A DNA stretch of 36,243 nucleotides from positions 1-36,243 of the forward strand of contig JAFUAO010000007.1 of the NCBI GenBank assembly GCA_017460665.1, in the 5' to 3' direction. The first letter of the stretch is position 1. The number at the start of each line of letters is the position of its first letter. The position numbers and the translations under genes are program-made. The stretch is from Ruminococcus sp. Its GTDB lineage: Bacteria; Bacillota; Clostridia; Oscillospirales; Ruminococcaceae. The notes under the pieces were generated by a model that did not search any database, had not been told where the DNA came from, and saw only the letters and a list, made by a program, of their open reading frames with translations. Below are positions 3,998 through 27,897 of the stretch, one piece after another.

Positions 3998-5929
3998 TCA
4001 GTTCTCGGTGAGCATATCTCTCATGAGCACAAGGTCGAACACATTGATCCTGCCGTCCTGACATAGGTCCCCGGCCTGCCAGTCTGCAAGCTCAGAGCCG
4101 GGCCTTGCAAGGAGCCAGCTCTGCATAGCCACGAGGTCGGCGATGCTGAAGGCCCCGTCTGCGTTCACGTCCCCCGGAAGAGAGCTCTTCTCCGGGAAAA
4201 AGGCCGCACCCAGCTCGTTCAGGTCAGTGTTCAGCTCGCTGAGGGGGAGGGCAGAGGTGCCGTCCCAGAGGTACAGGTCGTAGCTGCCGTTCTTGGTGCT
4301 GCTGAAGATCAGTCCCTCTCCGGCCGGGCAGGGGTCTGAGCAGTCGTAGTCCGGGGAGTTGAAGGGCATAGCCATTATCCGGCTGCCGTCGAAGCACATG
4401 ATCTGGTCGCAGCGGTCCTTCGTCGAATACCACTTGGCGAAGTACAGCTTCTCGCCGGAAACTGCCGGATAATAGGCGTCCACGCCCTCCTCGCTGTACA
4501 CTGTTATCAGCTCATCGGAGGCAAGATCCATGCGGCATACCGATCCGATCCTGTTCTCATACCGGGTGAAGTAGATGTACCTCCCGTCGGCGGAAAAGCA
4601 GGGCATGGCCTCCTCCGCCTCGTCATCGGTCAGCATTGCGGCCGCTCCCGATGCGATGTCCAGAAGGGCAAGGTCATAGACGAAGCCGCCGGCCTCATTG
4701 CTCCAATGGCCGGACTTGAACAGCACGCTCTTCCCGTCGGGGGAGAGCTTCGGGTCCTCGTTCCGGGAGCCGCTGTTCTTGGTAAGGTTTTTGATCACGC
4801 CCTTCTCCCGGAGGAAAATGTCCCACTCGTCGGCCTCCGGGTCGATCGCCATGAAGACGATCCTGTCGGGAGAGCTGCCGAAGCTGGCGTTCATGGGGTG
4901 TATGAAGCCGCCGGTGATCTCCTCTATCTCTCCCTCGGGGCTCCTCAGGAAGAGCCGGCTGTCCTTGGCGCCGTAGGAGGAGCAGCTGTGCCACAGGAGC
5001 CAGCCTTTGGGCAGCTCCGCCCTTGGCTGGGCCCAGCCGCTGTCCGGGTAGGACTCGTTCTGGGGAGTATCGCCGCTCTCGTGGAAGGGCGTGATCTTCA
5101 CATAGTCCACCTCCATTTCGGTCCGGTCGAAGTCAGGGGTCCCGGCCCAGTTTTTCGGGAACCACAGCCCCAGCCAGAACCGGCTTTCGTTGGTGGGGAT
5201 ATGCTGGAAGGAGGTGTAGGTCAGCTCCCCGTCGAAGTAGAACTCCACCCTCGGTGTCTCGGTGTCGCTGCCGGTGTGCCAGTCGAAGCGGTAGGTGTGG
5301 AACTGCCCGTCGGCCTGCTCCCCGCAGTCCACCGACTGTGTGAGATAGTCCTCCTCGGTGGTCCAGGTCGTGCAGAGGGCATGGCTAAGGGAAAAGCCGC
5401 CGCTCTCGTCCCTTCCGGGGAACTCGATGTCGATCTCATGGTTCGTGACGGAGAGCTCTCCGCCGGAATAGTCCTCCTCATACTCGAAGGTCCACATGGC
5501 CGAGCAGCAGCCCAGCTCCGGAGCGATCTTAGCCCGGATCTCGTAGCTGCCGGAGGCGGTGTAGTCTCTTGTTGCGACAGCGCCTCCGCAGCGCTTCCCG
5601 TCGGAGCGCCGGCTGCCGTCCCGGGCAATGCCCCGGAGCTCTCCGGTATAGTCGTTGCCCAGGCCGGTGAGAATCAGCCTGCCGTCCTCCACCCGGACGT
5701 TTTCTGCGGTCACGCCGCCGTTGTAGTCAACTGCCGTCCCGTTCTCAGTGACCGTTCCGCCCCAGTTCTTCTCGGCGATCAGCCATTTTTCCGTGTCAAG
5801 GGAGCTGCCGGAGAAGTCCTCGAAGAACACCTCCTCCGCAGCGCTCTCCTGTGTCGGCTGAGGAAGGGCGGTACACAGAGCCGCCGCTAAAGCTGCCGAC
5901 AACAGGCGTTTCATCGTATAAGCGGTCAT
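3998..5929 (-). CDS. Secreted GH16 glucanase with TolB-like propeller and C-terminal dockerin
   Basis: Likely endo-beta-glucanase (lichenase/laminarinase class) for assembly into a cellulosome. Residues 1-31 are a signal peptide. Residues ~35-281 form the GH16 jelly-roll with the active-site motif EIDIE at 165-169 (E165 nucleophile, D167, E169 acid/base). Residues ~315-580 carry PD40/TolB-type blades (for example LSPDGKSVLF and FSADGRYIYF). Residues 586-643 are a type I dockerin with two Ca-binding repeats (DVNADGAFSIADL and DLCQDGRINVFDL). The ATG at 5929 lies eight bases after GGGAGG. It is the last gene of a four-gene minus-strand unit, 15 bases after the preceding gene. The propeller between catalytic domain and dockerin is unusual; such modules bind ligand or protein, but its partner here is unknown. 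Confidence 0.93.
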   Translation of the reverse strand: MTAYTMKRLLSAALAAALCTALPQPTQESAAEEVFFEDFSGSSLDTEKWLIAEKNWGGTVTENGTAVDYNGGVTAENVRVEDGRLILTGLGNDYTGELRGIARDGSRRSDGKRCGGAVATRDYTASGSYEIRAKIAPELGCCSAMWTFEYEEDYSGGELSVTNHEIDIEFPGRDESGGFSLSHALCTTWTTEEDYLTQSVDCGEQADGQFHTYRFDWHTGSDTETPRVEFYFDGELTYTSFQHIPTNESRFWLGLWFPKNWAGTPDFDRTEMEVDYVKITPFHESGDTPQNESYPDSGWAQPRAELPKGWLLWHSCSSYGAKDSRLFLRSPEGEIEEITGGFIHPMNASFGSSPDRIVFMAIDPEADEWDIFLREKGVIKNLTKNSGSRNEDPKLSPDGKSVLFKSGHWSNEAGGFVYDLALLDIASGAAAMLTDDEAEEAMPCFSADGRYIYFTRYENRIGSVCRMDLASDELITVYSEEGVDAYYPAVSGEKLYFAKWYSTKDRCDQIMCFDGSRIMAMPFNSPDYDCSDPCPAGEGLIFSSTKNGSYDLYLWDGTSALPLSELNTDLNELGAAFFPEKSSLPGDVNADGAFSIADLVAMQSWLLARPGSELADWQAGDLCQDGRINVFDLVLMRDMLTEN

Positions 5930-14259: not shown

Positions 14260-15310
14260 TTACTTTTGCTTCAAATAAAGCATAGATTGCTGTGATTCAA
14301 TTTCTGCTCTTAATTCTTCCTCAGTCGGAAGGTACAGCTTATATTTTGAAGCAAAAAGCTGTTCGCTGCCATGCATTACTGAATATCTTGCAATATCCTC
14401 ATCTGTTTCGGAACAGAGTACAATGCCCAGTGTAGGATTATCACCCTCGCTGCGTTTAAGCTCGTCATACATACGAATATACATATCCATCTGACCAACG
14501 TCCTGATGAGTTATCTTTCCGGTTTTCAGGTCAATGAATACAAAGCACTTCAGAATGTAATTATAGAAAACGAGATCAATATAATAGTCCTCTTTTTCCG
14601 TGTGTATTCTTTGCTGACGTGCAACAAAAGCATAACCTTTTCCAAGCTCCATAAGAAATTTTTGCAGATTGGAAAGAATAGCACTCTCAAGCTGAGTTTA
14701 TGTCATGTCTATATCAGAGGACAAACCGAGAAATTCAGCAACAATAGGATTTTTCATATATTCATATTTATTGTGCTGATATTTTGCGGTTTTTCGACCA
14801 TTTCAGCGATAACAGGCTGCTGATCCTGAGATGACAGCAGTCTGTAGTAATACTGCGAGTCAATATTGCGCTGCAACGTCCGTACTGCCCATGTCTGTTC
14901 GGCAGCTTCTTTGGCATACCATTCTCTTGCAACTGGATCTTTAACTTGAAGCAGTACCCTATAATGTGTCCAAGAGAGAAGCTTTTCAGATTTTCCACTC
15001 GCTGAGTGGAAAATCTCCGGAAAGGTTTTATAAAAAGAATAAAAGCTGTATAGGTTTGTTTTAGTAAATCCTTTTCCGTACTCATCGGTAAGTGCTTTTG
15101 AAAGCTTTTTATTACTTCCATGCCATATTCGGCACGTTCACTGTTTTTAAGTTCTTCCTCGGATATTCTTTTGCCAAGCAGCCAGTTGCGTCTGACAAGT
15201 GCAAGATTGACCGCCTGATATGCACTTTCACGGGCAACATCTATTATAGCGCGAATGTCCTGAAGTATATCATCAGAATTTGTAAATGCATTCATTTCGT
15301 TATTATCCAT
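14260..15310 (-). pseudogene. Decayed DUF1016/YhcG-type PD-(D/E)xK nuclease gene
   Basis: Homologue of the YhcG/DUF1016 family (N-terminal DUF1016 domain, C-terminal PD-(D/E)xK nuclease). It is readable from ATG 15310 (MDNNEMNAF) to 14260 only across three lesions. The first is one base missing from the T run at 15106-15110 (A run on the coding strand), the second is one missing at 14790-14794, and the third is a GAA-to-TAA stop at 14698-14700. In the corrected frame the middle reads KYEYMKNPIVAEFLGL and QLESAILSNLQKFL, as in intact members. The nuclease core (IDLVFYN, FVFIDLKTGK) is preserved. The promoter and ribosome site are still good. Confidence 0.88.
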
Positions 15311-15341
15311 ACTTTTATCCTCACTATTGGACTGTACTATA

Positions 15342-15370
15342 ATTATATCATATCCACATTGTGCTGTCAA
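15342..15370 (-). promoter_or_regulatory. Promoter of the decayed DUF1016 gene
   Basis: On the minus strand: TTGACA (15370-15365), 17-base spacer, TATAAT (15347-15342). Perfect consensus, although the gene it drives is broken. Confidence 0.85.
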
Positions 15371-15383
15371 ATCATAAGCAAAT

Positions 15384-15521
15384 TTATTGTTTTTCACTGT
15401 TGCTGATTTCCTTATTAAGCCTGCTTATGACACGTCTTAGAGCCTGGATCATAACGACCATACTGCCGATAGTAAATCCTATTAGGAATCCCAATAGCAG
15501 TCCAATGAATAAATTTGCCAA
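15384..15521 (-). CDS. Small single-pass membrane protein
   Basis: A 45-residue peptide: a Gly-rich membrane helix (FIGLLLGFLIGFTIGSMVVM) followed by a basic/polar tail. The start is TTG at 15521, about six bases after AGGAGG; the longer upstream frame has no start signal. Its size and Gly-patterned helix recall the DUF3789 peptides carried by conjugative elements of Clostridia, but the match is by eye only. It lies between the recombinase pieces and the DUF1016 remnant. Confidence 0.6.
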   Translation of the reverse strand: MANLFIGLLLGFLIGFTIGSMVVMIQALRRVISRLNKEISNSEKQ

Positions 15522-15705
15522 AATATCGCCTCCTTTTTTACTTTTGTATCTTCTGAAAATGCCGCTTAATACGTTCCCATAGAGCCGCCACAAATCGCCT
15601 GTATCGGCTTTTGTCGCTCTCTATGGTATAACTTACCCTCTATCGACAATACCCCTCAAAGACCGCCTATATTTGCGCCGTTTCATTTCGTGTTTACCTG
15701 AGCGA

Positions 15706-15733
15706 AAAACAGCTTGCGACTGCAAGCTGTTTT
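15706..15733 (-). terminator. Terminator of the recombinase genes
   Basis: Perfect 12-bp stem AAAACAGCTTGC / GCAAGCTGTTTT with a GACT loop. On the minus strand the stem ends in five T followed by CGC. The stretch 15522-15705 shows no gene. Confidence 0.85.
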
Positions 15734-15744
15734 GCTATATATCG

Positions 15745-15852
15745 TCAGTTTTCAAGTTCAGCCCTGACCTCATATCCGCCCTTGAAAACAATTATTATTT
15801 CTTTCTTGCTGACTACCTTTACGCATTCAATGACCTTGCGTAATAATAGTTC
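15745..15852 (-). pseudogene. C-terminal remnant of another serine recombinase
   Basis: In a frame different from the 15827-16666 gene, and overlapping its end, the minus strand reads ELLLRKVIECVKVVSKKEI and then IIVFKGGYEVRAELEN before a stop. This is the usual end of large serine recombinases. No upstream part remains in this frame, so a third recombinase appears to be reduced to its last ~35 residues. Confidence 0.6.
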
Positions 15853-16666
15853 CGTTGATAAATTCAACCTCAATAACGCACGAATGGCTCACCACGATCC
15901 GCTTTACGCACGATCTCAGCAAGCCAGTATCAAGGGTATTAATTTTTTCTCTGCCAAGCAGCAGCGACTTTAACAGCTCCGTTTTCTGCGGAACATCGCT
16001 ATAAGTACAGCGGTTATATTTCAGCTCGGCAAGTCGGAGAATATCGTTTCTGATCTCGTCAGCACTTTTAGTGCCATTGTCAATGGCACGGTCAATATCG
16101 CTCTGCTTGCAGAGTATCTCCGATGTCGGTCTGTATTCGCTGACAAGAGCCTCGGCTTCAATAAGCGTCGGATTTGCAATTACTGTATTCAGAATATTGA
16201 GGATAGCACTTGTCAGCATTTCGTCAGTCAGCTTGAATAAATAAGGGTGGCAGTCATGATTGCGGCAGTCCCATAATTCAGCTTTAGTCCTGAACAGCCG
16301 TTTGCCGCATTCCTTGCATACCGTAAGACTGCGGACTGCTTGCAATTCGTCAGGAACTATGCAGAGCGAAGTTGCTTTTGCAGTCTTGCGCTCGTTGACA
16401 GCTCTGAGAACGTCCTCACTTATGAGCTGGGGATAAACGTCCGTACCGAGATATTTCTCGTTTTCAAGAACACGCTTGACCATGTTTTTATTCCATGCAG
16501 CTCCCTCGCTGTAGGGGACAGCCATTTCCCTTGCTATATCATTCAGGCTGCGTCCTGCCATGTACTCGCTGAAAATTGTAAACACAGCAAGTACCTCTGT
16601 CGGCTCAGTTTCAATAACGCCGTTCCGCATTGTATATCCGAATGGTATAGTTCTGTTTTTGCCCAT
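15827..16666 (-). CDS. Recombinase-family protein lacking the catalytic resolvase domain
   Basis: A 279-residue protein made only of the Recombinase and zinc-ribbon regions of large serine recombinases. It begins RTIPFGYTMRNG and contains the DNA-binding stretch SLNDIAREM. A zinc ribbon follows (CKECGKRLF...CRNHDCH, about residues 115-138), then a helical C-terminus. The N-terminal resolvase domain with catalytic Ser is absent, and there is no room for it because ATG 16666 follows GGAGGTGA at correct spacing. Catalysis-free companions of this kind occur beside full recombinases in integrative elements of Clostridia, as accessory proteins of unproven role. The reading frame is intact. Confidence 0.78.
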   Translation of the reverse strand: MGKNRTIPFGYTMRNGVIETEPTEVLAVFTIFSEYMAGRSLNDIAREMAVPYSEGAAWNKNMVKRVLENEKYLGTDVYPQLISEDVLRAVNERKTAKATSLCIVPDELQAVRSLTVCKECGKRLFRTKAELWDCRNHDCHPYLFKLTDEMLTSAILNILNTVIANPTLIEAEALVSEYRPTSEILCKQSDIDRAIDNGTKSADEIRNDILRLAELKYNRCTYSDVPQKTELLKSLLLGREKINTLDTGLLRSCVKRIVVSHSCVIEVEFINGTIITQGH

Positions 16667-16733
16667 ATTTCTCACCTCCGACACCACTATACCACAAAAG
16701 GTCTGTTTTTTCTATTCACCAACACCAACAAAA

Positions 16734-16762
16734 ATGCTCTCTGTTTTTCGTGCAGAGAGCAT
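16734..16762 (-). terminator. Terminator after the broken recombinase
   Basis: ATGCTCTCTG / CAGAGAGCAT, perfect 10-bp stem with a nine-base loop; TTTTT follows on the minus strand. It lies just beyond the stop of the recombinase fragment at 16772. Confidence 0.8.
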
Positions 16763-16771
16763 AAAGACGTA

Positions 16772-17197
16772 TTATATTTCTTCGGTAAATTTTAGACCCC
16801 CCATGATATGAAATTCAAGACTATTGCCATTGACAATTATTTTATCAACTAGGAATTCAAAAGCCTCCGCTTCAAAATCTACCATAATATGGTCACGCTT
16901 TTCAAAGTAGTCTATGAGAATTTTAATGTCCTTGAGCGTATCATCGCTGTTCTGTGATAGCATTCGTAAGTCCTTAGTGAGCTTATTTATTTTCACATTT
17001 ATCTCGGCAGTTTGCTCGTTAAACTTTGCTTCATTTAGAAATCCTTTAGTCCGCAACTCGGCTATTACTCGGAGCTGTTCCTTTAATTGGAATATGCTTT
17101 TTCGGAGCTCTATAACATTTGCATTTCCGACAGTCTGTTTAAGTTCAAGCTCCTGTAAGGAAGTGCGTATAGGCTCAAACAGATTCTTATATAAGGT
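16772..17197 (-). pseudogene. C-terminal fragment of a large serine recombinase
   Basis: The open frame can be read from about 17197 (TLYKNLFEPIRTSLQELE) through the coiled coil (ELRKSIFQLKEQLRVIAEL) to the typical end (DYFEKRDHIMVDFEAEAFEF and KIIVNGNSLEFHI). About 140 residues remain and there is no start codon at the front. Upstream the sequence changes abruptly into the end of a membrane-protein gene. The matching N-terminus (MDKTRTAAYCRVST...) lies 2.3 kb away at 19536-19688, so one recombinase gene was split, with its middle lost. Confidence 0.82.
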
Positions 17198-19941: not shown

Positions 19942-19999
19942 ATATAAACAAGAACGAAGCTCTCCATTAAATGGAGACATATAACGGAGAGTTTCGGGA

Positions 20000-20076
20000 T
20001 GGCGCGCCTTGCTGGATTCGAACCAGCGGCTTACTGCTTAGAAGGCAGTTACTCTATCCAGCTGAGTTAAAGGCGC
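20000..20076 (-). tRNA. tRNA-Arg (TCT)
   Basis: Fully paired cloverleaf: acceptor GCGCCTT/AAGGCGC, anticodon loop CTTCTAA (TCT), T-loop TTCGAAT, discriminator G and encoded CCA. It decodes AGA/AGG, codons used often in this window. Confidence 0.97.
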
Positions 20077-20110
20077 ACAGAAAAAGATCAGCAGCCTACT
20101 GCTGCTTTTC

Positions 20111-20184
<74 letters not shown>

Positions 20185-20203
20185 ATGACATTCAACAGAA
20201 AAC

Positions 20204-20232
20204 ATTATACCACACAGAGGGCTCATTGTCAA
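20204..20232 (-). promoter_or_regulatory. Promoter of the tRNA operon
   Basis: Perfect TTGACA (20232-20227), 17-base spacer and TATAAT (20209-20204) on the minus strand, 20 bases before tRNA-Gly. Confidence 0.9.
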
Positions 20233-20318
20233 TAGCGGAGGGCAAAAAAAGTCATTTTGCACAAAAACGCCCTTCCTTCCTCTCTATCATTGCACAGCCC
20301 AGATCCGCTAAAATTCCC

Positions 20319-20369
20319 TGCAAAAAAATTGCAAAAGCTATTGACAAACCGGGGGAAGCGTGCTATCAT
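20319..20369 (+). promoter_or_regulatory. Distal promoter of the transporter operon with TGCAA boxes
   Basis: TTGACA (20341-20346), 17-base spacer, TATCAT (20364-20369). Two TGCAAA boxes lie upstream at 20319 and 20330. The 18 bases ending in the -35 (TTGCAAAAGCTATTGACA) recur, with three changes, at the proximal promoter. Confidence 0.7.
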
Positions 20370-20481
20370 ATAAGTGTAACAACTGTATTACTATCGTTAA
20401 TACACCGATACGATCCGAAGATCGGTCAAAAATTGCTCCAAATGACCAAATATTGCTGTGCAGCCCTGCCTGTTATTTTTT

Positions 20482-20541
20482 CGCAAAAATTGCAAATAAA
20501 CTGCAAGATCTATTGACAGAGCCCCGTTAAAGTAATATCAT
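20482..20541 (+). promoter_or_regulatory. Proximal promoter of the transporter operon with TGCAA boxes
   Basis: TTGACA (20513-20518), 17-base spacer, TATCAT (20536-20541). Boxes CGCAAA (20482), TGCAAA (20491) and TGCAAG (20502) precede it at about 10-base steps. The 18 bases CTGCAAGATCTATTGACA match the distal promoter at 15 positions. The two promoters look duplicated. The leader to the first gene is about 108 bases and shows no riboswitch that I recognise. Confidence 0.7.
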
Positions 20542-20655: not shown

Positions 20656-21537
20656 ATGAAACGTTCCAATGACCCCTGCGGCAAGCGGCGAGAGCGCATC
20701 GCCAGCGACCTGTGCATACTGCCCAGCCTGCTGGGAGTCCTGATATTCTTCCTGATCCCCTTCGGGATCGTGGTGTACTATTCCCTTATCAGCAACCCGG
20801 TGACGAAGCAGTTCGTGGGGATAGAGAACTACACGAAGCTCTTTTCAAACAACGCCTTCATCACCGCAGTCAAGCACACGGCCCTGTTCTCAGTGATCTC
20901 AGTGCCGCTGGCGGTGGTGCTCTCCATGGCGCTGGCCGTCATGCTGGAGAGGAACATCCCCGGCAAGAGCGCCTTTCGGACGTTCTTCCTGAGCCCCCTG
21001 ATGGTGCCCACGGCCTCAGTAGTGCTGGTGTGGCAGGTGCTCTTCCACAACCACGGCACGATCAATCAGATCATCGAGCACTTCGGCGGCAGCGGCCCCG
21101 ACTGGCTCAAGTCCAACGCAGGACAGGTGGTAATAATACTCATGTTCCTGTGGAAAAACCTAGGCTACAACATGATACTCTTCATGGCGGCCCTTGCCGG
21201 CATACCCCGTGACATCATCGAGGTGGCCGAGCTGGAGGGCGCCGGAAGGATCTATCAGTTCTTCCATATAAAGCTCAGGTATCTCTCGCCCACGATCGTT
21301 TTCGTGACGATCCTGTCCATGATCAATTCCTTCAAGATCTTCCGTGAGGTATACCTCCTCACCGGCGACCACCCCTTTGAGCTGTATATGCTCCAGCACT
21401 TCATGAACAACACCTTCGCTTCGCTGGACTATCAGAAGCTCTCGGCAGCAGCCGTGATCTTTGCGGCGGTGATGATCGTGATCATCGCAGTTCTCCTGAT
21501 CTCGGAGAGCATCTTCGGAAAGGATGTGGAGAACTGA
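20656..21537 (+). CDS. ABC sugar importer permease, MalF/UgpA type
   Basis: A 293-residue inner-membrane permease of the CUT1 (MalF/UgpA) class with six helices. The loop that contacts the ATPase reads EVAELEGAGRIYQFFHI (EAA motif, about residues 193-209). Normally it pairs with a MalG-type permease, a solute-binding protein and an ATPase. The partner permease is the next gene, overlapping by one base. The start is ATG 20656 with only a weak ribosome site (GAGTGAT), perhaps a sign of translational control. First gene of a five-gene operon. Confidence 0.92.
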   Translation: MKRSNDPCGKRRERIASDLCILPSLLGVLIFFLIPFGIVVYYSLISNPVTKQFVGIENYTKLFSNNAFITAVKHTALFSVISVPLAVVLSMALAVMLERNIPGKSAFRTFFLSPLMVPTASVVLVWQVLFHNHGTINQIIEHFGGSGPDWLKSNAGQVVIILMFLWKNLGYNMILFMAALAGIPRDIIEVAELEGAGRIYQFFHIKLRYLSPTIVFVTILSMINSFKIFREVYLLTGDHPFELYMLQHFMNNTFASLDYQKLSAAAVIFAAVMIVIIAVLLISESIFGKDVEN

Positions 21538-22475
21538 TGACAATAAAAAAGCGCAGGCGCCGTGCAGACGTGGCCTTTACCGCTGTGGCAGTGATCGCAG
21601 CCTTCCTCTTCCTGATGCCGACGGTGCTCACTATCGCCAATTCCTTCATGACCTCCTCTGAGATCGCCGCCAACTACGGCGCAATGTTCGGCAATATGAC
21701 CGAGGACAAGAAGGTCTTCATCTCAGAGAACGTCAACCTGAAATTCATTCCCGACAAGGTCACTCTCGCCCAGTACAAGGCAGTGCTGCTAAAGAGCCCG
21801 GACTACCTGATGAAGTTCTGGAACTCAGTGATCCTGACGGTGCCGATCACGTTTTTCCAGCTCCTTGTGGCGGTGTTCGCCTCATACGGCTTCGCCCGGA
21901 GCAAGGGCAAGATCAAGGCTGTGATCTTTTTCAGCTACATAATACTCATGCTCATGCCATATCAGGTGACGCTGGTGCCGAACTTCCTGGTGGCGGACTT
22001 CATCAAGACCGCCGTGACCAACATCTTCTATCCCGACGGCGCTATCCCGAACGGCCTTGCGAATATGCGCTGGGCAGTGATCCTGCCGGGGATATTCTCG
22101 CCCTTCAGCATCTTTCTGCTGACCAAGGCCATGAAGAGGATCCCGATCGCCTACACCGAGGCCGCCCGTCTGGACGGCGCCGGAGAGCTTCAGATACTCT
22201 TCCGGATCTATCTCCCCCTTTGCCGGGGAGCGCTGGTGTCGGTGGCGATGCTGGTGTTCATCGACTTCTGGAACATGGTGGAGCAGCCCCTCATACTCAT
22301 GAAGGACGCCAACTACCACCCCCTTTCGGTATTCCTTTCACAGATAAATACAGGCGACGTCGGACTGGCCTTCGCCGTGGGAACGGTCTATATGGTGCCT
22401 ACCATACTCATGTTCCTCTACGGAGAGGACGATCTGGTAGAGGGCATCACCTACTCCGGCGGCATCAAGGGCTAA
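21537..22475 (+). CDS. ABC sugar importer permease, MalG/UgpE type
   Basis: A 312-residue CUT1 permease with six helices and the EAA motif EAARLDGAGELQILFRIYLP. The outer loop between helices 1 and 2 (about residues 36-88: ANYGAMFGNMTEDKKVF and beyond) is longer than the usual MalG loop and charged, which could be a docking surface for an extracytoplasmic partner. ATG overlaps the previous stop (TGATGA), with GGAG ahead of it. No ATPase gene accompanies the pair; a shared MsmX/UgpC-like ATPase encoded elsewhere is the usual solution in Firmicutes. Confidence 0.92.
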   Translation: MTIKKRRRRADVAFTAVAVIAAFLFLMPTVLTIANSFMTSSEIAANYGAMFGNMTEDKKVFISENVNLKFIPDKVTLAQYKAVLLKSPDYLMKFWNSVILTVPITFFQLLVAVFASYGFARSKGKIKAVIFFSYIILMLMPYQVTLVPNFLVADFIKTAVTNIFYPDGAIPNGLANMRWAVILPGIFSPFSIFLLTKAMKRIPIAYTEAARLDGAGELQILFRIYLPLCRGALVSVAMLVFIDFWNMVEQPLILMKDANYHPLSVFLSQINTGDVGLAFAVGTVYMVPTILMFLYGEDDLVEGITYSGGIKG

Positions 22476-22500
22476 CGACACATCAAAAGGAGATATACAT

Positions 22501-24195
22501 ATGAATGAAGAAAATCAGGTCCGTGATCCCAAGCGCAGACGTGAGATCATAAAGACCATACTCATAATTTTCCTGGCAGCGCTGCTGGTGCTGACCTTCT
22601 GCTCGAACACGATCATGAACAAGTCCCTGCCGGAGATCTCTACCGAGCGTGTCTCCAGCGGAAAGCTCACCGAGCGTGTGAGAGGCAGCGGCATGGTCAT
22701 CTCCAACCAGACCTACGACGTGACCGTGGACGGCAACAAGACCGTTGACACGATCATGGTCAAGACCGGCAAGGAGGTCAAGAAGGACGACGTGCTCTTC
22801 ACCGTGAGCAAGACCTCCAGCGATACCCTTGCAGCGGAGGAGGCGACTCTGGCGGAGCTGGACCTTGCTTACCAGAAGGCTCTTCTGGCGCCGCCGGCGG
22901 ATTACTCCACCGAGGACCAGAGCATCAAGAACGCAAGGGCCGACCTGAACGCAGCGATCGCAAGACGTGACGCAGCTATCGCCTCACAGGGCAGCGCTCA
23001 GGCTGAAAAGGCCGCCTACGACCAGAACAAGGCAGACCTTAGCTATCAGACCAAGCTCCAAGGGAAGCTCAGCGCTACGATCGCAGCGATCGACTCAGAC
23101 GAGTATTCCGCCGCCGCCCCTGAGTACACGGGAGCTCTGGTGGAGCTCCACACGAAGGCTGCTGAGGCCGAGGCCGACTACAACGCCGCCTTTGAGGTCT
23201 ACAGCCAGATCCTTGCGGAGGGCGGAGATGTCTCCGCATTGCAGGCAGATCTCGACCGCAAGCAGTCTGCAAGGGACTCAGCAAGAGATCAGTACGACAA
23301 CGAGAAGTTCTCCGTCCGGGCCGGCCTTGTGGACCAGCTCTCAGAGGCGGAGTCCCAGATAGACTGGCTCACCGCAGCCACCGCCGAGTATGAATCCGGC
23401 CTTGCCGCCGGCGAGGGGAGCTCCCTTGACGCTCTCGAGGCCGATGTGCTCCTCAAGCAGCAGAGCCTTGAGACCCTGATCACCGAGCTGAACAAGACCA
23501 AGACCGAGAACTCCAACCAGTCAAAGCTCAACGACCTTGACCTTCAGGCCGCAAAGCAGGCCGCCGACAAGCAGCGTGAAAAGGTGGAGAAGCTCAAAAA
23601 GGAGTCCGAGGTCACTGAGATCAAGGCCAAGTACAGCGGCGTCGTCAGCGCCGTAAACATAAAGCCCGGCGAGGAGACCGTCCCCGATATGCCGGCCCTT
23701 ACCATCGACATTTCCGAGGAGGGCTACACCCTTGAGGTCACCGTTGACGCTGAGAAGGCCAAGAAGGTCAAGACCGGCGCCGAGGCTGAGATCATCAACA
23801 ACTGGTACGGCGATATGCAAGCCGTTCTCAGCGAGATAAAGAGCGATACCGTCGCCGGCTCACGGAACAAGCGGCTGATCTTCAGCATCACCGGCACCGT
23901 CGAGCCCAATGCCTACCTTGAGGTGTCGATACCCTGCGGCAGCGGGAATTACGACGCTATCGTTCCCAACAGCGCCGTCCATGAGGACACGAAGGGCAAG
24001 TTCGTCCTGACAGTCACCTCCAAGAGCTCGCCTCTGGGCAACCGCTACTATGCAGAGCGTGTGGACGTGGAGGTGCTGGCCAAGGATGAGCTCTCCAGCG
24101 CAGTCAGCGGAGCGATCTACAGCGGCGACCACGTCATCACTACCTCCAGCAGCAATATCAAGCCCGGCTCGCAGGTCCGCATGAAGGACAACTAA
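22501..24195 (+). CDS. HlyD/RND-type adaptor (membrane fusion protein) with long coiled coil
   Basis: A 564-residue membrane-anchored adaptor. One N-terminal helix (about 17-35) is followed by the first lipoyl half (60-102). A very long alpha-hairpin/coiled coil, Ala- and Glu-rich, spans about 106-370. The second lipoyl half follows (YSGVVSAVNIKPGEE near 378-392), then a beta-barrel region (YTLEVTVDAEKAKKVKTG). Such adaptors usually serve efflux pumps (MacA, HlyD); here the gene lies inside a sugar-import operon. The hairpin, over 250 residues, could reach well through the cell wall. ATG 22501 follows AGGAGATATACAT; gap 25 bases from the permease gene. Confidence 0.88.
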   Translation: MNEENQVRDPKRRREIIKTILIIFLAALLVLTFCSNTIMNKSLPEISTERVSSGKLTERVRGSGMVISNQTYDVTVDGNKTVDTIMVKTGKEVKKDDVLFTVSKTSSDTLAAEEATLAELDLAYQKALLAPPADYSTEDQSIKNARADLNAAIARRDAAIASQGSAQAEKAAYDQNKADLSYQTKLQGKLSATIAAIDSDEYSAAAPEYTGALVELHTKAAEAEADYNAAFEVYSQILAEGGDVSALQADLDRKQSARDSARDQYDNEKFSVRAGLVDQLSEAESQIDWLTAATAEYESGLAAGEGSSLDALEADVLLKQQSLETLITELNKTKTENSNQSKLNDLDLQAAKQAADKQREKVEKLKKESEVTEIKAKYSGVVSAVNIKPGEETVPDMPALTIDISEEGYTLEVTVDAEKAKKVKTGAEAEIINNWYGDMQAVLSEIKSDTVAGSRNKRLIFSITGTVEPNAYLEVSIPCGSGNYDAIVPNSAVHEDTKGKFVLTVTSKSSPLGNRYYAERVDVEVLAKDELSSAVSGAIYSGDHVITTSSSNIKPGSQVRMKDN

Positions 24196-24207
24196 GGCGG
24201 TGGGCTG

Positions 24208-25335
24208 ATGAAACACAAGATAAGGCTATGGCAGGCGGTCCTTGCCGGCGCCAATGCAGTCTGCCTGACGGCGGCGCTGATCCTCACGGCCGTGGGGAGC
24301 TCCAGTGCAAGGAGCCGGAGGTACGACCGTGCGGCGGAGATCTGGTCCGGCGGAGAGGGCGGCTATGCTCAGATAAGCTGCTTTCTGGCGGAGGGATCCG
24401 GCTTCACGGAGAACTCCGTGGGGGGCGTCCGGTCAGGGCTCATGAGCAAGCTGAGAGAGGCCTCGGTCACTGCCGAGGAGGGCAGGACCCTTGTACCTGA
24501 CGCCTACAGCGCTGAGGTGGGCACATCTCAGATAAGGAGCAGCTCAGGCCGCTCCGAGGCCAAGATCACAGCCGTTGCAGGGCATTTCTTCCTGTTCCGC
24601 AGCTTTCGGCTCCTGAGCGGCGCATACCTCTCGGACGACCTTCTGATGCAGGACGGCGCCGTGATCGACAGCGAGCTGGCATGGGACCTCTTCGGCTCTA
24701 CGGACGCCGCAGGCATGGACATCTACATCGACGGGGCGAGGTTCTACGTTTCCGGCGTAGTGGAGGCTCCCTCCGACAAGACTGACAAAAAATGTGCCGG
24801 GAAAGCAAGGCGGGCCTACATCACCTACGACGGCGCCTCCGAGATCTACGGCGGCAGCGAGAGCTACGGCTATCCGGACTTGGGAGAGGGCTATGTCTCC
24901 TCCGGCTTCGACAAGGTGACCTGCTATGAGTGCATCGTCCCGGATCCGGTGAAGGATCTGGCCAAAAACAGCGTGACGGAGCAGTTCGAGCCATACAAGG
25001 AGCTCAGCGAGATCGTGGTCAACTCCACAAGGTACTCACCGAAAAGGCTGGCAAAGGCCTTCGGGGAGCTGCCCTCCATAGCGGTCAGAGACAAGCCGAT
25101 AGTTCTTCCCTTCTGGGAGAACGCCTCACGAATGACCGAGGTCAAGCTGGGCGCAGTCTACTTCGCAAGGCGCCTTACGCTGATCATTCCGGTACTTACC
25201 GCCGCCGGAGCTCTCATTTGGGGCTTCATAGTGTGGCGGAGAAATAAAGATAGGCTCCTGAAAAAGGCGGCCGGGGCAGTAAGAGGCCTCATGAGCCGGA
25301 TCAGAGCCAAAAAACAAAAGAAAGATAACATATAA
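24208..25335 (+). CDS. MacB periplasmic-core-like membrane protein without the permease part
   Basis: A 375-residue protein with one N-terminal helix (about 10-30), a ~290-residue extracytoplasmic domain, one C-terminal helix (about 322-343) and a strongly basic tail. The domain carries the MacB_PCD/FtsX-type signature IDSELAWDLFGSTDAAGMDI followed by RFYVSGVVEAP. True MacB/FtsX permeases have four helices and an FtsX core; here the last two helices are missing and there is no nucleotide-binding domain. It is therefore probably a scaffold or a receptor for the adaptor encoded 12 bases upstream. Start ATG 24208 after AAGGCGGTG. Confidence 0.78.
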   Translation: MKHKIRLWQAVLAGANAVCLTAALILTAVGSSSARSRRYDRAAEIWSGGEGGYAQISCFLAEGSGFTENSVGGVRSGLMSKLREASVTAEEGRTLVPDAYSAEVGTSQIRSSSGRSEAKITAVAGHFFLFRSFRLLSGAYLSDDLLMQDGAVIDSELAWDLFGSTDAAGMDIYIDGARFYVSGVVEAPSDKTDKKCAGKARRAYITYDGASEIYGGSESYGYPDLGEGYVSSGFDKVTCYECIVPDPVKDLAKNSVTEQFEPYKELSEIVVNSTRYSPKRLAKAFGELPSIAVRDKPIVLPFWENASRMTEVKLGAVYFARRLTLIIPVLTAAGALIWGFIVWRRNKDRLLKKAAGAVRGLMSRIRAKKQKKDNI

Positions 25336-25362
25336 CACCTCGCATCAAGAAAGGACAAAGCT

Positions 25363-27783
25363 ATGAAAAAAAACACATTCCGCCGTGCGGCGGCAGGCAT
25401 CCTTGCAGCAGCTCTTGTAGGGGCGTCGGCAGTTTCCTGCGGTGACTCAAAGCCCAAGGCCAAGCCCCAGCAGACCGCTGCTGAGGTGGTACAGCACTCC
25501 TACAGCGCAATGCCGCTGGATACTGACATGACCTTCAACTATGTGGAGCAGATGAGCTCCACCCCCGACGGCAAGGTGATGATCGTTGGCAGCACCGGCG
25601 AAAGCATGACCATGTACCTGACGGATACCGACTTCTCGGAGTTCACTGAGGTGGATATGCAGCTTGATCTGCCGGAGAACGCCGAGAGCTACTTCCGCTC
25701 CACCATGACCCCCGACGGCAAGATCCTTGCACTTGTTACGATCACCGAGTATTCCCAGAAGATCCCGGACTATGACTCGCCGGATTTCGACGCCGAGGCC
25801 TTCGACTGGGACAGCTTCTACAAGTCCGCAAAGACCAGCTACAGGGTAGTGACTATCGACAGCAGCGGCAATGTGCTCTCGAACTGTGAGGTGAACGGCC
25901 TTGAGAAGTTCAGCTCCGACGACGATGAGGGCGCCGGGCTCTATATCGACTCACTGATCCCCTGCTCCGACGGAAGGGTGATCCTCCAGATCAGCGGCGA
26001 TGAGTCAAGATGCGTCATTATGGACGAGGACGGCAAGATCGGCGATGAGGTCAACTTAGGGGAGGACATCTGGTTCTACAACTCCTGCGTCACCTCCGAC
26101 GGCCGCCTTGCCTTCGCCACATGGGAGGACGAGTCCAACGGCCAGGTGATCCGGTTCGTGGACACTGATGCCATGAAGATCACCGACGACAAGATCAAGG
26201 TCAAGGACACCAGCCTCAACAATATCGGCACCCTTCTTCCCGGCGCAGACGACTATATCCTCTACGCCTCGGGAGCCGAGGGCCTTTACGGGCTCCGTGA
26301 GGACGGCTCCGGCGAGGAGCTGATCAACTGGATCGACTCAGACCTCAACGGAGACTATATCCGTGGAGTGGTAGCCCTCGAGGACGGGGACTTCCTGATC
26401 CTTGAGCAGGACTGGTCCACCTCCAACGGCGTGAACTTCTACAGGATCACCGAGCGTGACATCACTGAGCTGGAGAACACGATCGTCATAACCCTGGGTC
26501 TTATGTACACCGATCCGGAGATAACTTCCAAGGTCAACGCCTTCAACAAATCCAGCGACAAGTACAGGATCCGCATCTCCGACTACAGCAAGTACGATGA
26601 GTGGGACTCTGAGAGCGACAAGATGCTCAATTCCTCCTCAAAGCAGCTCAAAATGGACATCGTTTCCGGCAATGCCCCTGACATGATCTACACCTACGAC
26701 CTTTCAGTGATAAAGACCCTGGCCTCAAAGAACGTTTTCACAGACCTTTACGGCTATCTGGGAACTGACGGCGCTGTCTCGAAGGACGACTTCGTTCCGG
26801 GAGTGCTGGAGGCAGGCGAGTCCAACGGCAAGCTCCTGAGCATATCTCCTACCTTTACGGTGAGCAGCCTTGCGGCCAAGAGCAAGTTCGCAGATCAGGA
26901 GAGCTGGGATCTTGACAAGCTGATCGAGACATACGAGAACCTCCCCGACGGCATGAAGCTCTTTAGCGACGCAAACACCAAGGAGGGCGTTTTCGGCCAG
27001 CTCAGCAACGGCTGCTCGGGCTATATCGACTACGACGCAGGCACCTGCTCCTTCGATTCGGACGAGTTCGTGAAGCTCCTTGAATTCTCCAACACCTTCC
27101 CCGAGGACGACGATACTCCCGACTGGGAGACAGCCTCTGATGAAGAAATGGATGAGTACTACAACGAGGTCCAGCTCGCCTGCCGCAACGACAAGGCCCT
27201 GCTCTACGGGATCAACCTATACACAGGAAGAGAATACGCTCAGGCCAAGTACGGCGCCTTCGGTGATGACATCACCATGGTGGGCTACCCCACCAACAAC
27301 GGCAGAGGCGGCCGGCTGAACCTTGGACAGAGCTTCGCTATATTGGAGAACGCCGCTGACAAGGACGCCTGCTGGCAGTTCATCAGCTCCTTCTTCACCG
27401 AGGACAGCTACAACACCGACGACAGGCGCATGGCCTACGGGCTCCCCTCGCTGAAGGCTCCCTTCGGGAAGCTCCTTGACGAGGCCACAGATAAGCCCTA
27501 CTGGACCGACGAGAACGGCAAGAAGGAGTACTACGACGACCAGTACTGGATAGGCAACGACCTTGAGCCCCTTACCATCGATCCTCTCACCAAGGAGGAG
27601 AGGGACGCCCTTGAAAAGTACGTTCTGGAGTCTGCCTCTGCGAGCACCTACATCTACAGCAGTGAGATCAGCGACATCGTAAACGAGGAGATCTCGCCCT
27701 TCTTCGCAGGTGAGCGCTCCGCACAGGAGACTGCTGAGATCATCCAGAACAGAGCCTCACTGATCCTCAGTGAGCAGTCATAA
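25363..27783 (+). CDS. Lipoprotein: beta-propeller-like domain fused to an extracellular solute-binding protein
   Basis: An 806-residue exported lipoprotein. The lipobox-like SAVSC has the acylated Cys at 26. Residues ~55-365 contain repeated blades (STPDGKVMIVGS, MTPDGKILALV, VTSDGRLAFATW) typical of a beta-propeller. Residues ~375-806 match a family 1 solute-binding protein (LMYTDPEITSKVNAFNKSS, SGNAPDMIY, YGAFGDDITMVGYPTNN, FISSFFTED). It should capture an oligosaccharide for the two permeases. A propeller in front of the binding domain is uncommon and makes the protein about twice the usual size. AAAGGA precedes the ATG. Last gene of the operon, followed by a strong terminator. Confidence 0.9.
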   Translation: MKKNTFRRAAAGILAAALVGASAVSCGDSKPKAKPQQTAAEVVQHSYSAMPLDTDMTFNYVEQMSSTPDGKVMIVGSTGESMTMYLTDTDFSEFTEVDMQLDLPENAESYFRSTMTPDGKILALVTITEYSQKIPDYDSPDFDAEAFDWDSFYKSAKTSYRVVTIDSSGNVLSNCEVNGLEKFSSDDDEGAGLYIDSLIPCSDGRVILQISGDESRCVIMDEDGKIGDEVNLGEDIWFYNSCVTSDGRLAFATWEDESNGQVIRFVDTDAMKITDDKIKVKDTSLNNIGTLLPGADDYILYASGAEGLYGLREDGSGEELINWIDSDLNGDYIRGVVALEDGDFLILEQDWSTSNGVNFYRITERDITELENTIVITLGLMYTDPEITSKVNAFNKSSDKYRIRISDYSKYDEWDSESDKMLNSSSKQLKMDIVSGNAPDMIYTYDLSVIKTLASKNVFTDLYGYLGTDGAVSKDDFVPGVLEAGESNGKLLSISPTFTVSSLAAKSKFADQESWDLDKLIETYENLPDGMKLFSDANTKEGVFGQLSNGCSGYIDYDAGTCSFDSDEFVKLLEFSNTFPEDDDTPDWETASDEEMDEYYNEVQLACRNDKALLYGINLYTGREYAQAKYGAFGDDITMVGYPTNNGRGGRLNLGQSFAILENAADKDACWQFISSFFTEDSYNTDDRRMAYGLPSLKAPFGKLLDEATDKPYWTDENGKKEYYDDQYWIGNDLEPLTIDPLTKEERDALEKYVLESASASTYIYSSEISDIVNEEISPFFAGERSAQETAEIIQNRASLILSEQS

Positions 27784-27827
27784 TTTTGCATTCTTCAATT
27801 TCATATACTCCACCTCCTTTTAAAGGG

Positions 27828-27862
27828 AAAACGTCAGGAAGAAATTCCTGACGTTTTCTTTT
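27828..27862 (+). terminator. Terminator of the transporter operon
   Basis: Perfect 13-bp stem AAAACGTCAGGAA / TTCCTGACGTTTT with a GAAA loop, then CTTTTT. It begins 45 bases after the last stop. It could also act weakly on the convergent minus-strand gene. Confidence 0.93.
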
Positions 27863-27897
27863 TGCGACTTATTTTTCGGAAAAAAGGGGGTATAATA

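Follow-up and report, generated by a model that had tools for sequence, protein, structure and literature searches.

In Gram-positive cellulose degraders, the passage of oligosaccharides across the thick wall is usually treated as free diffusion. Periplasmic adaptors have been placed in export (excerpts of PMC4446572, PMC8277102 and PMC5768738); in the available part of the last of these, a Streptococcus MacAB-like pump has a four-transmembrane (four-TM) domain, and Spr0693 forms a hexameric nanotube whose modelled assembly rises ~154 Å above the membrane (PMC5768738). We analysed a 36,243-nucleotide (nt) stretch of Ruminococcus sp. DNA (hereafter the window; assembly GCA_017460665.1, contig JAFUAO010000007.1, positions 1 to 36,243) and found an operon at 20656-27783 that joins two CUT1-type permease genes to genes for an HlyD-type adaptor, a MacB-like protein and a binding lipoprotein. 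Judged by its proteins and their relatives, this operon probably encodes one CUT1-type ATP-binding cassette (ABC) importer that incorporates two exporter-derived membrane proteins. The matches listed from open-licence PMC literature included no description of a CUT1 importer combined with an HlyD/MacB pair, which is not proof of absence. The features of the operon are:

20341..20369, + strand: promoter-like site, first of two (11/12 matches; pattern match only)
20513..20541, + strand: promoter-like site, second of two, ~115 nt 5' of permease 1 (11/12 matches; pattern match only)
20656..21537, + strand: permease 1 (perm1), MalF/UgpA-type CUT1 permease, 293 aa (PF00528, 1.4e-16)
21537..22475, + strand: permease 2 (perm2), MalG-type CUT1 permease, 312 aa, with an EAA-type loop and a WNMVEQPL motif (PF00528, 6.2e-11)
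22501..24195, + strand: HlyD-type adaptor, 564 aa (HlyD_3 above cut-off)
24208..25335, + strand: MacB-like protein, 375 aa (MacB_PCD above cut-off)
25363..27783, + strand: binding lipoprotein (solute-binding protein, SBP), 806 aa (SBP_bac_1 above cut-off)
27821..27864, + strand: terminator-like hairpin, 20 pairs (pattern match only)

A sequence-only reading of this DNA had described five tightly spaced genes between a promoter region and a terminator, and the coordinates, the spacing (from perm1 to the SBP gene, a 1-nt overlap and then 25, 12 and 27 nt) and the pattern matches at both ends agree with it. The two promoter-like sites fall in the two copies of an imperfect direct repeat of 51 nt, one site in each copy (20319-20369 and 20491-20541); the copies are 172 nt apart and share 71% identity. 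Pfam matches above their cut-offs bear out the MalF-type and MalG-type permeases and the HlyD-type adaptor of that reading, and the permeases are of the importer type that it had assumed, with PF00528, an EAA loop in perm2 and a family-1 SBP beside them. The EAA coupling loop of perm2 is defined by invariant columns (A210, D213 and G214 in an alignment of 13 rows) and that of perm1 by eye only; perm1 matches the UgpA model at 1.8e-33, yet below the cut-off of that model. We found no ATPase gene in the operon (open reading frame (ORF) list and Pfam matches of the five proteins, 20656-27783), also as the reading had claimed.

The block of four membrane-protein genes is conserved well beyond this genome. 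The MacB-like gene was found in 55 of 60 genomes of the same genus, the window's own included, and all 54 same-genus loci inspected (54/54) keep the order permease-permease-adaptor-MacB-like; 49 of the 51 with enough contig also have an adjacent SBP gene (upstream of the block in locus L067). Among the five same-genus genomes without the MacB-like gene, the clade permease and this adaptor are both absent from G013, which is 98% complete, and from G029, G033 and G059, which are only 73-81% complete; the fifth, G011, has a clade permease, and its adaptor is cut by the contig end. The MacB-like profile matched 30 of 394 sampled genomes of the order at <=2.9e-23, 27 of them outside the genus, and 23 of these 27 loci (L075 included) have the four genes in order, the other 4 being cut by contig ends. 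Outside the order, 20 loci from further orders and one further class were inspected; 18 have the same gene order, and contig ends cut the other 2. Of 80 named loci, the top-ranking ones among 548 confirmed relatives, 74 have it and six are cut in this way; in L207, one of the 74, permease 2 and the adaptor are separated by an SBP ORF. Since the named and unnamed sets overlap in species, these counts are not independent. The order kept in 54/54 same-genus and 74/80 named loci rules out chance co-location.

The block occurs in many families of Clostridia and in one other class. Its named carriers are mostly Ruminococcus, including R. flavefaciens FD-1, 007c and ATCC 19208, together with some Oscillospiraceae, Lachnospiraceae and Clostridium bins. 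A Ruminococcus-like block (L186) stands in an Alistipes senegalensis bin, which is probably mislabelled, and a genome of the window's family has two tandem hybrid blocks with short adaptors and ~370-aa MacB-like proteins (L305:3671-11934).

The permeases themselves also track the adaptor. In the loci examined, an adaptor lies near 135 of the 137 perm2 genes scoring >=232 bits and near none of the 19 below 232 bits (0/19), a cut set after the data were seen. Of the two high scorers without a detected adaptor, the L306 locus is cut short by the end of its contig, and L311 does have an adaptor-like ORF of 252 aa, which the profile missed. For perm1, with an arbitrary cut of 180 bits, 131 genes above the cut have an adaptor and 2 lack one; below it, the numbers are 4 and 14. 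In a perm2 tree of 69 rows, we found that the 50 high scorers form one clade (support 100/98) with a single label change on the tree. The labels of this tree follow the scores, it contains long branches, and it has only 19 controls. The adaptor profile, in turn, matched 34 of 323 genomes of the class; 32 of these matches stand beside permeases of the window type (loci inspected or adjacent coordinates) and two (G510, G753) beside RND pumps. Gene order and tree show that the genes for both permeases, the adaptor and the MacB-like protein travel together as one inherited block and that the adaptor-linked permeases are one clade. Genome evidence thus gives good support to an importer that has adaptor subunits built in. 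The sequence-only reading had held that the five genes belong together and that finding them in this genome only would speak against this; they are clearly not so confined, and the conserved order, the permease clade with its adaptors and the joint presence or absence all favour its view.

The MacB-like protein contains MacB_PCD, the MacB-type periplasmic core domain (37 bits versus a cut-off of 27, Pfam), and its family profile matches MacB structures at 1.3e-5. Hydropathy gives two TM segments (11-29 and 319-337), as in the two-helix protein first described, and the layout is TM1, core domain, TM2 and a basic tail, without an ATPase domain. An ordinary MacAB pump was rejected: neither the MacB-like protein nor the operon has an ATPase, and there are two TM segments, not a four-TM domain. 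By hydropathy, 108 of 117 strong members have two TM segments, whereas distant hybrids mostly have four to six; hence, a four-TM form without an ATPase probably came first, and the window's branch would have lost two helices. As controls, we took 23 loci with weak MacB matches: 17 have an adjacent ABC ATPase ORF (223-325 aa) and no CUT1 permeases, three (L333, L337, L339) are further hybrids, and three (L329, L335, L340) are unclassifiable. With the last three left out, one branch of a quick tree parts 40 hybrid MacB-like proteins from 17 ordinary MacB permeases (SH-aLRT 100).

These data bear on a rival view, in which the operon merely houses two machines, a CUT1 importer and an independent MacAB/YknXYZ-like exporter whose adaptor and MacB-like protein use another ATPase. 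Both proteins belong to families known in exporters, and the 59 ABC_tran matches in the genome offer possible partners. However, the MacB-like protein has two TM segments in nearly all strong members rather than the four of the Streptococcus pump (PMC5768738, available part), and the conserved block yielded no MacB-type ATPase, against 17 of 23 control loci with one. Moreover, the permeases form a single clade and the genes are absent together, which suggests that the two proteins depend on the permeases. Hence, we consider two separate machines unlikely.

The adaptor matches HlyD_3 (29.2 bits versus a cut-off of 22.2, Pfam) and, at E 5e-4, MacA chains; its match to RND_mfp (NCBIfam, 6.8e-21, 74.6 bits) is below the curated cut-off of 94.9. 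It has one TM segment, which is N-terminal (16-34, hydropathy), and its domain order is a TM segment with a conserved TM-end motif, half-lipoyl, helical hairpin region, half-lipoyl, barrel and membrane-proximal region. The half-lipoyl matches (83-102 and 374-466) leave ~270 residues in between, so the coiled coil of over 250 residues that had been proposed holds for length, whereas an unbroken coil is not supported, as Pro/Gly breaks occur at 131-132, 207 and 241-242, among others. The 146 adaptor lengths collected (122-790 aa) include ordinary pump adaptors and contig-cut ORFs. An RND adaptor was rejected: the RND_mfp score is too low, and the window has no RND transporter of ~1000 aa in its ORF list; such a transporter does stand beside the adaptor in L300 and L301. 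The steadiest part of the adaptor across the clade is the TM end, F-F-S-x-T-I followed by L-P-x-V, with invariant residues in 20 rows (distant rows by eye). Hence, we see the adaptor as primarily a membrane subunit that belongs to the permease complex, and the long hairpin as an elaboration in the window's branch. In L295:3078-4364, a single ORF has a perm2-like start followed by the adaptor, either a fusion or a frame fault.

Relatives point to the kind of ATPase that may drive the permeases. A motif scan found a MalK-like ATPase beside the block in 7 of 86 loci, directly 3' of the MacB-like gene in L112, L113, L114, L119, L123 and L124 and directly 5' of permease 1 in L111; the L113 protein is above the UgpC cut-off (455.8 versus 432). 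An ATPase also follows the MacB-like gene in L302 (475.4, above the UgpC cut-off) and in L167 and L168, there with MalK OB and TOBE_2 domains, and L307 has a shorter one (387, below the cut-off). Only one of the 59 ABC_tran matches of the window genome aligns with the L113 ATPase over nearly its full length (57%); its gene stands alone between unrelated genes, and the protein passes the UgpC cut-off (478.5). A shared MsmX/UgpC-type ATPase, which the sequence-only reading had said would be needed, thus exists in the genome, and its pairing with these permeases is putative.

The same features weigh on the idea of a glycan exporter or secretion system with CUT1-type permeases in reverse. An adaptor and a MacB-type domain are exporter hallmarks; the MalK/UgpC-type ATPases and the perm2 EAA loop, on the other hand, are importer features, and the SBP gene adjoins the block in almost every evaluable same-genus locus (49/51). 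We know of no CUT1 exporter and regard this idea as highly improbable.

For the single CUT1 importer, we propose that the ATPase would be one UgpC/MsmX-type protein encoded elsewhere in the genome and that the conserved TM end of the adaptor and the TM helices of the MacB-like protein would pack against the permeases. Having no ATPase of its own, the MacB-type core domain may be a passive platform for the adaptor, whose ring and hairpins would form a scaffold that holds the SBP with its oligosaccharide over the permease; in long adaptor forms, this scaffold might be a tube through the inner wall zone. More tentatively, and though we think it less likely than not, the long-adaptor branch may be a wall-spanning importer of the kind that the sequence-only reading had suggested, in which an adaptor ring on the MacB-like platform conducts surface oligosaccharides inward to the CUT1 permease. 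Cellulosomes or anchored cellulases would then release oligosaccharides at the surface, and a tripartite-type machine would run inward. If each arm of ~110-135 residues were an unbroken helix, the conduit could be up to ~17-20 nm long, which is an upper bound; a hairpin of this length could cross the inner wall zone, as proposed, in the part of the paper available, for the 154-Å Spr0693 assembly (PMC5768738).

The SBP has SBP_bac_1 in its C-terminal half (30.4 bits versus a cut-off of 26, Pfam), and its lipobox cysteine, Cys26, does not vary across an alignment of 58 sequences. Within the N-terminal half, repeats recur at intervals of ~45-50 residues (up to 90% probability in hhalign), from which this half is predicted to be propeller-like. 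The 806-residue binding lipoprotein with a propeller-like half is therefore upheld as a binding lipoprotein with repeats, and the propeller stays a prediction from them. The closest structure to the C-terminal half is Clostridium thermocellum CbpC (7x0o), at 9.6e-7 with the single sequence and 2.5e-31 with the family profile, the next best being 8.1e-14. In a distant family, an SBP carries a BlaR1/M56 peptidase domain at its N-terminus (L133:958-3429, PF05569 5.4e-42), and L136:3914-6343 holds a similar fusion, by eye only. Both fusions adjoin permease, adaptor and MacB-like genes and are perhaps a sensor form.

Possible cargo is indicated by genes near the relatives' blocks. We found glycoside hydrolase family 9 with carbohydrate-binding module 3 (GH9-CBM3) in L161 (39 nt 3' of the MacB-like frame) and L165; GH5 in L166 and L161, with 33-34% relatives in the Ruminococcus loci L223 and L226 (L223 confirmed GH5); GH94 in L160, L164, L344 and L345; and GH1 in L241 (other strand) and in L244, L249 and L250 (same strand). 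Among 12 loci of one genus, 7 have an enzyme gene of these kinds within 11 kb on the same strand, at a distance of ~10 kb in three cases; this is a raw count, uncorrected for background, and only four query enzymes were used. Hence, the cargo in at least some relatives is likely beta-glucan oligosaccharides; for the window system, this cargo is putative. Elsewhere in the window, one protein (3998-5929, - strand) combines GH16, WD40-like PD40 repeats and a type I dockerin and is likely a cellulosomal beta-glucanase.

One described system with bearing on cargo is C. thermocellum transporter C (clo1313_2783-6, Cthe_2125-2128). It is probably a relative with an AcrA-type gene, which is our deduction: an AcrA gene appears among the sugar-transporter clusters in the Fig 1 legend of PMC9601137, and within the transporter C cluster Cthe_2127 alone is left without a name. 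Excerpts of PMC7471329 report that xylose up-regulates cbpC, and sugar binding by CbpC was reported in an earlier study, as cited in parts of PMC11212667 and PMC9601137.

Several observations weigh against the single importer or its proposed cargo. In the accessible part of PMC9601137, CbpC bound none of the tested sugars and has a blocked pocket, and C. thermocellum with transporter C inactivated grew normally on glucose, cellobiose and Avicel. The window operon has no glycoside hydrolase gene, so the proposed beta-glucan link is partly supported, by cellulase, phosphorylase and beta-glucosidase genes near relatives and not by the operon itself. The loci L022 and L034, 2 of the 51 evaluable in the genus, have no nearby SBP gene; the genes are rearranged in L291, L293 and L296; L307, L309, L311 and L314 show no MacB-like gene; and in some deep-branching relatives the adaptor ORFs are only 122-252 aa. 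Hence, with such short adaptors or no detected MacB-like gene in some deep relatives, spanning the wall cannot be the general role of the adaptor.

Some MacB/FtsX-like transporters act as sensors, and the permease-adaptor-MacB-like assembly might likewise report the state of the wall or a glycan instead of importing in bulk. The absence of sugar binding by the CbpC-type SBP and of a growth defect on inactivation (PMC9601137, accessible part) would fit this, as would the BlaR1/M56 fusion in L133 with its look-alike in L136 and the response-regulator and kinase-like ORFs in the L312 cluster (by eye). However, the ordinary CUT1 controls L317-L320 are also flanked by regulator/kinase-like ORFs (by eye), and uptake agrees with the UgpC-type ATPases of several operons and with the beta-glucan enzymes encoded near others. 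Hence, we think a sensor quite improbable.

Around the operon, an Rfam scan of the window found three tRNAs only, on the opposite strand directly upstream of it; an ORF at 19971-20516 (+ strand) is antisense to two of these genes (20000-20076 and 20111-20184) and is probably not a gene. Split ORFs with YhcG-type nuclease and recombinase domains (14260-17056, - strand) are apparent remnants of mobile DNA.

If the operon encodes a single CUT1 importer, as we consider probable, periplasmic adaptors would gain a role outside export. A clade of CUT1 importers with an adaptor and a MacB-like platform, some near cellulase and phosphorylase genes, would make an alternative to free diffusion testable and gives reason to re-examine C. 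thermocellum transporter C.

Compared with known systems, the window block shares with the MacAB, YknWXYZ and Spr0693-0694-0695 pumps a hairpin-bearing HlyD-type adaptor and a MacB-type extracytoplasmic domain; unlike them, it has no MacB-type ATPase, two TM segments rather than four in the window's branch, and two CUT1 permeases with an SBP. With transporter C it shares two permeases, and among solved structures CbpC is nearest to the window SBP; transporter C differs in having four genes, no MacB-like gene among those named in the text available, and a CbpC of 438 aa without the propeller half. With the CUT1 importers MalFGK-MalE, MsmEFG-MsmX and UgpABCE it shares two PF00528 permeases and a family-1 SBP; a UgpC/MalK-type ATPase is encoded in the operon in several relatives and, as a putative partner, by one stand-alone gene in the window genome. 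Unlike these importers, the window operon adds an HlyD-type adaptor and a MacB-PCD protein and, in its branch, a propeller-like extension of the SBP.

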